Positions 37,086 through 39,862 of a stretch of DNA of 64,000 bases are shown here, in pieces (within the stretch, counting starts at the first letter, position 1; each line of letters begins with the position of its first letter). The DNA is from Polaromonas sp. (GTDB lineage Bacteria > Pseudomonadota > Gammaproteobacteria > Burkholderiales > Burkholderiaceae_C): NCBI RefSeq assembly GCF_029945895.1, contig NZ_JAQSDL010000115.1, positions 10,015-74,014 of the forward strand. Reading direction: 5' to 3'. Position numbers and translations under genes: made by a program. Below the pieces are notes generated by a model. That model did no database searches. It was not told the DNA's origin and was given only the letters and a program-made list of their open reading frames with translations.

Positions 37086-39077
37086 TTAGGCCACCATCTT
37101 GAGCAGCTCTGCCCCCTCGGTGACCTGGTCGCCGGGGGCGTACAACACCTCCTGCACCACTCCGTCGGCCGGCGCGGCAATGGTGTGCTCCATCTTCATG
37201 GCCTCCATCACCGCCAGCGCCTGGCCCTTGCTCACCTTGTCGCCCGCCTTCACCGCAAACGACACGACCTTGCCCGGCATGGGTGCGGTCAGGCGCCCGG
37301 CTTCGCCATGGGCTTCGCCGGCATGCGCAAGCTGGTCGATCACCGTGATCTGCGTGGCGCCCTGCCGGGCGAACACATGCACGGTTTCGCCGCGGCGATA
37401 GAGGCGTGCACTGAGCCGCTGCTCGCCAAAACGAATGTCCACCGCGCCGCCGCTGCCGGCAAACACCAGCACCTCGTCCACCTCGCCGACCGCCAGGCGC
37501 AGCCCGCCATCATGCAAATAGGTCAGCGCCGCCTGCGCCGGCTCGCCATGGAACTCGAATTCAAAGCGCCGCAGCGCCACCCCGTGCGAACGCCAGCCGT
37601 CACGCTTGCTGAAAGGGTCGTCCGTTTCCTGCGCTTTTTCCTCCAGCAGGCTCAGTGCCACGGCGGCGGCGACTGCCAGGGGCAGCCCAATCTTTTCCTG
37701 GTTGAACAGCACTGCCTCTTCGCGCGGAATCAGCGCGGTGTCCAGATCGGCCTGGGCAAACGAGCGGCTTTGCACCACATGGCGCAAAAACTGCACATTG
37801 GTGCTCAGGCCCACGATGTGCAACTGCGCCAGCGCTTCGTCCAGACGTGCCAGCGCCTGCTCACGGTTGTCACCATGCACGATCAGCTTGGCGATCATCG
37901 AGTCGTAATACGGCGAGATCGCATCCCCTTCGCGCACGCCGGCATCCACACGCACCAGGCCACGCTCGAAGGAGACCGAGGGCGGCAGACCATACACATG
38001 CAGTGTGCCGGTGGCGGGCAGGAAGTTGTTGTCAGGACTTTCGGCGCAGATACGCGCCTCGATCGCATGGCCGTGGATGCGCAGCTGGTCCTGCGCCAGC
38101 GGCAGTTTCTCGCCCGAAGCCACGCGCAGCTGCCACTCCACCAGGTCCAGCCCCGTGATGGCTTCGGTCACCGGGTGCTCCACCTGCAGGCGGGTGTTCA
38201 TTTCCATGAAGAAGAAGTTCATCGTGCCGTCCGGGCGCTGCTCCACGATGAACTCCACTGTGCCGGCGCCGACGTAGTTGACCGCCCTCGCCGCAGCCAC
38301 TGCGGCCTCGCCCATCTCGCGGCGCATGGCTTCGGTCATGCCGGGCGCTGGTGCTTCTTCCAGCACTTTCTGGTGCCGGCGCTGTACCGAGCAGTCGCGC
38401 TCGAACAGGTAGACATAGTTGCCGTGGGTGTCGCCAAACACCTGGATCTCGATGTGGCGCGGGCGCAGCGCATATTTTTCCACCAGCACCGCATCGTCGC
38501 CGAAGCTGTTGATGGCTTCGCGCTTGCAGGAGGCCAGCGCGGCCTCGAAGTCTTCCGACTTCTCGACTGCACGCATGCCCTTGCCGCCGCCGCCGGCGCT
38601 GGCCTTGATCAGCACCGGGTAACCAATGCGGTCGGCCTCACGCTTGAGCAACGCCGGGTCCTGGTCGCTGCCGTGGTAACCGGGTACCAGCGGCACACCG
38701 GCTTTCTCCATCAGCTGTTTGGACTCGGCTTTCAGGCCCATGGCCTTGATGGCGGAGGCCGGCGGGCCGATGAAGACCAGGCCGGCGTCGCCGCAGGCCT
38801 GGGCAAATTCCTCGTTTTCGCTGAGGAAGCCGTAACCCGGATGGATCGCTTCCGCGCCGGTGGCTTTCGCCGCAGCGATGATCTTTTCCCAGCGCAGGTA
38901 GCTGTCCTTGGGTGCGCTGCCACCGATGTGGATGGCCTCGTCGCACGCGCTGACATGTCTGGCGCCAGCGTCAGCGTCCGAATACACGGCCACGGTCTGG
39001 ATGGCCATGCGGCGTGCTGTTGCCGCAACACGGCAGGCGATTTCACCGCGGTTCGCGATCAGTATTTTCTTAAACAT
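37086..39077 (-). CDS. liuD: Biotin-dependent acyl-CoA carboxylase alpha subunit (3-methylcrotonyl-CoA type)
   Basis: A 663-aa protein. The biotin carboxylase domain is at residues 1 to about 445 (MFKKILIANRGEIACR, ASAGGGGKGMR, ERDCSVQRRHQKVLEE, FFFMEMNTRLQVEHPVTE). A linker domain and a C-terminal biotinyl domain with EAMKMEHT complete it. It partners the carboxyltransferase at 42975-44609; together with HMG-CoA lyase this points to 3-methylcrotonyl-CoA (or geranyl-CoA). The start at 39077 has GGAG at a good distance, but this start region lies in the loop of a perfect 19-bp inverted repeat and is partly duplicated upstream. Confidence 0.92.
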   Translation of the reverse strand: MFKKILIANRGEIACRVAATARRMAIQTVAVYSDADAGARHVSACDEAIHIGGSAPKDSYLRWEKIIAAAKATGAEAIHPGYGFLSENEEFAQACGDAGLVFIGPPASAIKAMGLKAESKQLMEKAGVPLVPGYHGSDQDPALLKREADRIGYPVLIKASAGGGGKGMRAVEKSEDFEAALASCKREAINSFGDDAVLVEKYALRPRHIEIQVFGDTHGNYVYLFERDCSVQRRHQKVLEEAPAPGMTEAMRREMGEAAVAAARAVNYVGAGTVEFIVEQRPDGTMNFFFMEMNTRLQVEHPVTEAITGLDLVEWQLRVASGEKLPLAQDQLRIHGHAIEARICAESPDNNFLPATGTLHVYGLPPSVSFERGLVRVDAGVREGDAISPYYDSMIAKLIVHGDNREQALARLDEALAQLHIVGLSTNVQFLRHVVQSRSFAQADLDTALIPREEAVLFNQEKIGLPLAVAAAVALSLLEEKAQETDDPFSKRDGWRSHGVALRRFEFEFHGEPAQAALTYLHDGGLRLAVGEVDEVLVFAGSGGAVDIRFGEQRLSARLYRRGETVHVFARQGATQITVIDQLAHAGEAHGEAGRLTAPMPGKVVSFAVKAGDKVSKGQALAVMEAMKMEHTIAAPADGVVQEVLYAPGDQVTEGAELLKMVA

Positions 39078-39105
39078 TCTGGTTCTCCGCGGTGAAATCG
39101 CCTGC
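39033..39105 (-). repeat. Perfect 19-bp inverted repeat bracketing the liuD start
   Basis: GCAGGCGATTTCACCGCGG at 39033-39051 and its exact complement CCGCGGTGAAATCGCCTGC at 39087-39105 enclose 35 bases that hold the start codon (39075-39077) and most of the ribosome-binding site. In RNA this is a long stem with the start in the loop. Confidence 0.85.
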
Positions 39106-39195
39106 GCACGCTTTGCGTGCCATGCGATGTAGCTTCGCTGCTGCGCCGCCCTGCGGCTGGTCACCCCTGTTGGCGATCAGTATTTTTTTAAACAT
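39070..39195 (-). pseudogene. Duplicated 5' end of liuD forming a 41-codon upstream ORF
   Basis: ATG at 39195 opens MFKKILIANRG, the same first 11 residues as LiuD, then shifts into unrelated sequence (DQPQGGAAAKLHRM...) and stops at TAA 39072-39070, overlapping the working liuD start (AATGTTTAAG). The upstream ATG is one base after the stop of the DUF4126 gene, which looks like the ancestral coupled start. Confidence 0.7.
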
Positions 39196-39196
39196 G

Positions 39197-39862
39197 TCAG
39201 TCGTTCTTTTTTGAAAAAGGAGATTTCAGGTTGAAGGCCGGGGTCGGCCCGCTGTCCGGTTTGCCGCTGAAGATACGGGCCACCCTGGCAAACAGTTGCC
39301 GCAGAAAATGCCAGCAGGTGCGGATCAGCCACACGCTGAGAACCAACACCAGAACCAGCGCAATCACAAACACCACGGGGTGAGCAATCGCCAGCCACAA
39401 ACCCGCAGGCACCAGGCTGTCTTCCACCAGTGACGCACCTACATTGCTGAAAGGCTCGGGCGAAGTGTTGATGGCGGCGCGGGTGGTGGCCTTGGCGGCG
39501 TGGCTGGTGGCCGCCAGCGTGCCACCCGCCAGGGCCGCCAGCAGCGCCATCAGCCCGCTGTCGGCACCAAACACGCCAGCCGCCAGCGCCGCGCCGGCGG
39601 GGATGCGGATCAGGGTGTGCACCACGTCCCACAACGAATCCAGCCCCGGAATCTTGTCGGCAAAAAATTCGACAAACACCATGAAGCCGCTGGCGCCCAG
39701 CACGACCGGGTGCGCCAGCAGGTGCAGACCTTGCGGCAGTTGAATCCAGCCCATGAAGCCGGCCAGACCGGTCAGCAGCACCACCAGGTACAGCCGCACG
39801 CCGCTGGCCCAGCCGAGCGCGCCGGCAAGCGCCATCAGTTGGGCGGTGTCCATGGCTTGCAT
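39197..39862 (-). CDS. DUF4126-family membrane protein
   Basis: 221 aa with several hydrophobic helices and the family text LAGALGWASGVRLYLVVLLTGLAGFMGWIQLP, PVVLGASGFMVFVEFFADKIPGLDSLWDVVHT and HAAKATTRAAINTSPEP. The function is unknown. GGAG lies 7 bases before the ATG at 39862. It sits between the serine hydrolase and liuD inside the catabolic cluster, 10 bases after the hydrolase. Confidence 0.8.
   Translation of the reverse strand: MQAMDTAQLMALAGALGWASGVRLYLVVLLTGLAGFMGWIQLPQGLHLLAHPVVLGASGFMVFVEFFADKIPGLDSLWDVVHTLIRIPAGAALAAGVFGADSGLMALLAALAGGTLAATSHAAKATTRAAINTSPEPFSNVGASLVEDSLVPAGLWLAIAHPVVFVIALVLVLVLSVWLIRTCWHFLRQLFARVARIFSGKPDSGPTPAFNLKSPFSKKND

Follow-up and report, generated by a model that had tools for sequence, protein, structure and literature searches.

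A recurrent structured leader at biotin carboxylase gene starts, with a probable role in translational coupling

The liuD gene of Polaromonas sp. appears to begin twice, which raises the question of what the two starts do and how the second one arose. The gene lies on the minus strand (37086..39077) of the window, that is, of the whole stretch of 64,000 nucleotides that was analysed (contig NZ_JAQSDL010000115.1, positions 10,015 to 74,014), and all the features described below lie on the same strand. It encodes the biotin carboxylase (BC) subunit of methylcrotonyl-CoA carboxylase (MCC), a protein of 663 aa with Pfam BC domains, BT_MCC_alpha and a biotin domain. Its working start (39043..39077) is the second copy of a 35-nt sequence whose first copy (39161..39195) lies upstream, the two forming a direct repeat 118 nt apart with 31 of 35 positions identical (89%). 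As already noticed in an initial annotation made from the sequence alone, the upstream ATG (39195) stands one base past the TGA (39199-39197) of a DUF4126 gene (Pfam PF13548). The two copies are separated by an insert of 83 nt (39078..39160) that encodes no enzyme. From the upstream copy runs a leader ORF of 41 aa (39070..39195), the TAA of which (39072-39070) starts 5 nt past the first base of the liuD ATG (39077), and therefore the leader ORF and liuD overlap, as the annotation had also stated.

The insert includes one arm of an inverse repeat (leader arm, 39087..39105), the other arm of which lies within liuD (gene arm, 39033..39051), with 35 nt between them. The initial annotation had described this as an exact inverse copy of liuD codons 10 to 16 or so; the exactness was confirmed (19 nt, 100% complementary), but the gene arm begins at the third base of codon 9 and extends through codon 15. 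The liuD start codon sits in the 35-nt loop of the resulting hairpin, and the first two bases of the Shine-Dalgarno-like GGAG of the working start (39085..39088) are paired in the stem, the rest being outside, which bears out the claim that the start codon would be looped out with part of the Shine-Dalgarno sequence in the stem. DUF4126 and liuD are the Pfam-supported members of a minus-strand gene neighbourhood (35101-42957) that comprises, in the order given and with the remaining ORFs assigned by reading their translations, acyl-CoA dehydrogenase-like, enoyl-CoA hydratase-like, dienelactone-hydrolase-like, DUF4126, liuD, hydroxyacid-dehydrogenase-like and HMG-CoA-lyase-like genes.

A search among close relatives for a version without the insert, which had been suggested as a check, was successful: in leaderless relatives of the genus, liuD has one start only, which comes immediately after the preceding gene. 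The 35-nt starts alone do not discriminate between the two copies (mean of 4.7 and 4.6 differences to leaderless relatives), whereas the flanking sequences do. In seven of eight chosen filled/leaderless pairs, the 100 nt located 5' of the upstream copy share an identity of 0.76-0.93 with the leaderless flank, and of 0.56 in the other pair, as against 0.41-0.49 for the 100 nt located 5' of the working start in the same eight pairs, the leaderless rows of this comparison, as well as those of the BC tree considered below, being hand-picked and non-exhaustive. Since the upstream copy has the leaderless-type flank, the upstream start is the native one, and it now serves as the start of the leader ORF. 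The insertion point is fixed, after GGYGA, and comparison of filled with leaderless relatives indicates that the start of the gene entered has been restored, as in SXT/prfC-type insertions. The duplication comprises the 35-nt start in all leaders, a few of them having 7-34 nt extra upstream, and the two copies mostly differ. The upstream ORF had been regarded as dead-ending after 41 codons; its length is correct, but its start is native and the ORF is open as far as the gene start in all 54 leaders compared. As read from the sequence, the native start and first 11 codons open a leader ORF that crosses a hairpin-rich insert and ends over a second gene start, which is in turn preceded by a Shine-Dalgarno-like sequence carried by the insert.

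Leaders of this kind were found at many other places. When searched with a covariance model based on 12 leaders, 17 of 61 genus genomes had strong full-length matches, at 21 places in total (E <= 1.2e-38), and so did 26 of 399 order genomes, with 32 such places spread over 11 family codes (E <= 2.5e-14), the other 373 order genomes lacking a strong match; E-values of covariance models are rough throughout. With a wider model, no full-length copy was detected in 369 genomes drawn from the class except in the window's own genome, and a single one outside the order was detected in 249 genomes drawn from the phylum (G866, E 3.7e-43). In G866, which belongs to another order of the class, the full leader (L145/L184) is located 5' of a urea-carboxylase-type gene, and its stem fits the codons of that gene. 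The other matches outside the order (L141, L146, L147 and L148) turned out to be BC starts without an upstream start copy. Named carriers amount to at least five, namely Azoarcus taiwanensis, Paracidovorax citrulli, 'Candidatus Propionivibrio aalborgensis', a Rhodocyclales MAG and a Burkholderiales MAG, names that point to Burkholderiales as the order in question. Out of 63 matches, the 53 in the sense direction were kept and 10 antisense matches of the palindrome were ignored; 45 of the 53 were carried forward, 8 near-copies being omitted, and 36 of the 45 entered alignment A4 and model R2 (omitting L088, L103, L104, L105, L121, L122, L124, L137 and L139), while alignment A5 and model R3 comprise 38 inserts.

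The genes downstream belong to several BC classes, including those of MCC, propionyl-CoA carboxylase (PCC), AccC and urea-carboxylase-type enzymes, as well as others without a finer class. Thus, the AccC assignment of L085 is based on TIGR00514 (739.5 bits, cut-off 626.5), and the best match of the urea-carboxylase-type L145 is TIGR02712 over the first 439 of 1201 positions, the whole-protein cut-off not being reached because the sequence is a fragment. The window's genome itself carries the arrangement a second time, on contig C106 (L069), at a gene whose product has a PCC BT domain, and BLAST of this genome with the insert rendered two strong copies, both at BC genes. A model of the insert alone gave 30 matches in the 399 genomes of the order (E <= 0.001), all 30 at BC-start leaders known from the full model, and 44 matches in 36 chosen genomes (E <= 6.7e-4), all of which correspond by coordinates to leaders placed at BC starts; in two tandem cases among the insert-only matches, the upstream unit precedes a second unit and not the gene directly. 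Many copies at unrelated places, as would characterize a MITE, were therefore found neither in the window's genome nor in those 399 genomes. Three of the best among the weaker matches of the insert model (L186-L188) were on reading unrelated sequence, with neither a leader nor a BC start. When plasmid records were searched with the whole leader, the best 20 of 61 matches covered at most about one third of the query, over the gene start, and the window's insert alone had no match in plasmid or phage records. A viral contig (L180), the single match of a degenerate pattern, contained no BC start in the 401 bases read.

The region has a pronounced capacity to fold. A stretch of 172 nt folds at -74 kcal/mol, as against -51.0 +/- 3.9 for shuffled sequences (z -5.9), and the inverse-repeat hairpin alone at -40.4 as against -18.0 (z -7.0), with none of 200 shuffles being as low in either case. 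When the gene arm was left out, the insert was unremarkable with respect to shuffles in three of four leaders tried (z -1.3 for the window's own, -0.5 and +0.2), the fourth having a z of -4.1. The leader-gene stem is paired in 88.5% of the cells of 36 leaders, and sliding it by 1-3 columns lowers pairing to at most 45%; in 30 of the 36, the leader arm base-pairs better with the gene it precedes than, on average, with the genes of the other leaders. Three further hairpins are found within the insert. Hairpin 1 (GCCGC-AGG-GCGGC, 5 pairs; 39145..39157) shows two-sided changes at one pair among 12 leaders and was left out of the wider-set counts because its register differs between short and long forms. 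Hairpin 2 (AGC-GAA-GCT; 39131..39139) is 100% paired in 36 leaders, with two-sided changes at two of its three pairs, and hairpin 3 (GCACGC-AAA-GCGTGC; 39106..39120) has two-sided changes at all six pairs and 85.6% of cells paired. Jointly, hairpins 2 and 3 are 90.4% paired in the 36 leaders, an analysis in which 8 leaders of family f28 were kept; in the own-gene and mismatch analysis hairpin 3 was counted without these 8, whose register is another. Two-sided cells numbered 41 for the leader-gene stem (12.6 in shuffles) and 87 for hairpins 2 and 3 (26.5 in shuffles), counts that do not equal independent events because the leaders are related. Among mismatches, G-U cells (38) exceed A-C cells (8), which fits a constraint acting on the sense RNA.

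A two-state switch, in which an upstream AAATYGCCTG would pair with the inverse arm, was also considered and rejected: the competing stem was 75.1% paired in the 36 leaders as against 75.3% when shuffled, and none of its pairs had a two-sided change in the first 12 leaders. Two mutually exclusive conserved structures, as in a riboswitch, were thus not found among the 36 leaders. Rfam gave no match at the gathering score in 8 leader loci and, on the window stretch, just three chance-level matches, all of them below that score.

Conservation extends to the reading frame. All 54 leaders have an open leader frame, as against 8 and 14 with the other two frames open, and the stop of the leader frame lies 4-8 nt inside the gene in 51 of the 54 and 6, 17 and 21 nt before it in the remaining three, so that in every case the leader ORF terminates on or close to the gene start, as in a coupled leader. 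Spacings agree modulo three in 50 of the 54, and a Shine-Dalgarno-like motif is found 5' of the gene start in 43 and 5' of the leader start in 30. Across six close relatives, all differences in the first 11 leader codons are synonymous, with a third-position divergence of 0.28, compared with 0.25 in the gene body and 0.14 in the second start; this pattern would fit either selection on the peptide or recent separate insertions beside native starts. The suggestion of the initial annotation that the arrangement constitutes a translation-control element is supported by the comparison, since the leader frame, the overlap of stop and start, and the pairing of leader with gene are all conserved. It is probable that the leader ties translation of the carboxylase to its own small reading frame, termination-reinitiation coupling, with a leader ribosome opening the stem, being the likely mechanism. 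At the mRNA level, the final part of the leader ORF would pair with gene codons 9-15; with the start codon looped out and the ribosome-binding sequence half buried in the stem, free ribosomes would initiate poorly; a ribosome travelling along the leader ORF would unfold the stem and could then reinitiate at the gene.

The leader is distributed in a patchy manner. On a tree of 86 BC proteins, 54 with and 32 without a leader, 19 gains or losses are needed, at least 16 of which are forced by starred branches. Inserts of MCC and PCC genes within one genome are 0.88, 0.82 and 0.77 identical (G000, G033 and G036, respectively), although the identity between the MCC and PCC enzymes of the window's genome is 55%. 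MCC inserts of the genus are 0.89 identical to those of genus g28, and 0.72 and 0.71 identical to those of families f21 and f28, respectively; for PCC inserts, identities between the genus and f21 are 0.83 and 0.70. Movement of the leader between paralogs is thereby indicated. Just 3 branches of the insert tree are starred, and it clusters partially by gene class (8 changes, the least possible being 4), with the PCC inserts of the genus forming a group, so that vertical inheritance has a share too.

Taken together, we lean, if not strongly, towards a BC-specific structured leader that would couple translation of the enzyme to the leader ORF and would spread by recombination between BC starts. 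Lying between two copies of a BC start, the leader could reach further BC starts through gene conversion or short-homology recombination, and recombination between the two copies could remove it precisely; occurrence at BC genes alone, the native upstream flank and precise loss would all be explained by short-homology recombination between BC starts. More tentatively, the leader may represent a genetic unit of ca. 120 bp with BC gene starts as its sole niche, which would convert the native start into a leader ORF, supply a new start, keep expression by means of coupling and a stem shared with the host gene, and spread among paralogs and bacterial families by using the duplicated start as homology arms.

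The main rival to recombinational spread is loss from an ancient leader. An old regulatory leader of BC genes could have descended vertically, with many precise losses between the direct repeats and conversion between paralogs, and could respond to a signal such as carboxylase demand. The covarying structure, the presence in 11 family codes and the grouping of PCC inserts of the genus would be in line with it, and the 19 changes on the tree could be losses; we nevertheless consider it unlikely, with losses being needed in most lineages, as reflected by the 373 order genomes without a strong match, a switching stem being unsupported, and the one carrier outside the order having the leader at a urea-carboxylase-type gene. 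We have similar doubts about a selfish, non-autonomous mini-element that would be moved by an enzyme recognizing the near-palindromic BC start (GGCGA-AATCGCC) and would confer no regulatory benefit, being tolerated because the gene start is rebuilt and translation coupling is kept. Such an element would account for the patchy presence, the tandem double units and decayed copy described below, the fixed insertion point and the likeness of inserts across gene classes within one genome. However, that all 30 insert matches in the order are at BC-start leaders and none elsewhere would be unusual for a transposed element, the stem takes in gene codons outside the insert and covaries, and the window's insert has no copies in the phage or plasmid records. 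The initial annotation had proposed that a template switch at liuD created the element, and a direct plus an inverse copy is indeed a geometry that template switching would make. A one-off event of this kind in liuD, without wider meaning, is highly improbable, and for the liuD copy refuted, in view of the strong matches at 21 places in 17 genus genomes and 32 places in 26 order genomes, with compensatory changes. As leaders of the same class precede BC genes that are not orthologous to each other, over 11 family codes, the liuD copy was inherited or acquired, and a local template switch that made the element in liuD is not supported; template switching may have produced the inverse arm in the first place. 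Closely similar arrangements occur in separate genomes, which also argues against an assembly artefact, an objection raised beforehand.

Several known systems resemble the BC leader in part. SXT/R391 is an integrative element that enters the 5' end of prfC and rebuilds the gene, and elements of this type are large and have their own recombinase. They share with the BC leader the replacement of a gene start by a start borne on the element, in contrast to which only 83 nt are inserted in the BC leader and no enzyme is encoded. The mgtQ gene is a small ORF of 8 codons just upstream of mgtB, located in a single operon of a single organism, and its translation reportedly makes a sequestered ribosome-binding sequence of the next gene accessible (PMC8092293). 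It is similar to the BC leader in that a small upstream ORF lies near a stem-bound ribosome-binding sequence of the next gene, the hindrance in the BC leader being a putative one. Unlike mgtQ, the BC leader ORF opens with a duplicate of the gene's own start, stops where the gene begins, base-pairs with codons of the gene and is present at numerous BC genes. Rickettsia palindromic elements (RPEs) and other MITEs are described as short, palindromic and non-autonomous, and may sit in coding sequence with the frame kept, features that they share with the BC leader (PMC10969869). RPEs are found in unrelated genes and lengthen the host protein (PMC10969869), whereas the BC leader was encountered at BC starts alone and terminates with a stop and a new start, with no fusion. 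Finally, a 2013 survey of frame transitions included a BC cluster of 128 genes from 44 genera, 75% of which start within 10 nt of an upstream stop, and classed it as coupling, much as is proposed for the BC leader; no such leader is described in the available part of that survey (PMC3711429). Our search of the open-access literature, subscription papers being outside its scope, found no description of such a leader.

If the reading of a coupling leader that spreads between BC starts is true, the leader would be an uncatalogued one common to carboxylases that act in leucine, propionate, fatty-acid and probably urea metabolism; it would also be a case of a control element passing from gene to gene by bringing with it a duplicate of the start that it enters. 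Since filled, missing, doubled and decayed forms exist, its cost or benefit is directly measurable. Two tandem leader units of ca. 121 bp each precede an accC-type gene in G083 (L086/L160) and an MCC-type gene in G319 (L098); inspection of the G083 sequence showed that the first leader ORF extends to the start of the second unit. A third BC gene of the window's genome, L003 (G000:C29, locus positions ca. 1463-1525), is preceded at a distance of 37 nt by an abbreviated copy of its start, MSKKILIAAGGRRV, with a short ORF of 14 aa whose stop overlaps the GTG start of the gene. This form looks like a decayed leader, and model matches of the L003 kind were also found in G004 and G453. In a group of variant leaders (L088, L104, L121, L122, L139 and L149) the ORF continues with NRGEN, NRGES or similar and the right half is the usual one; in L139, for example, the first hairpin is built from the gene's own GAAA..CGCCTGC and its inverse. 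In L137, from Azoarcus taiwanensis, the insert is ca. 20 nt longer and the start duplication reaches ca. 14 nt 5' of the ATG, as though the duplication had taken in the native ribosome-binding region.
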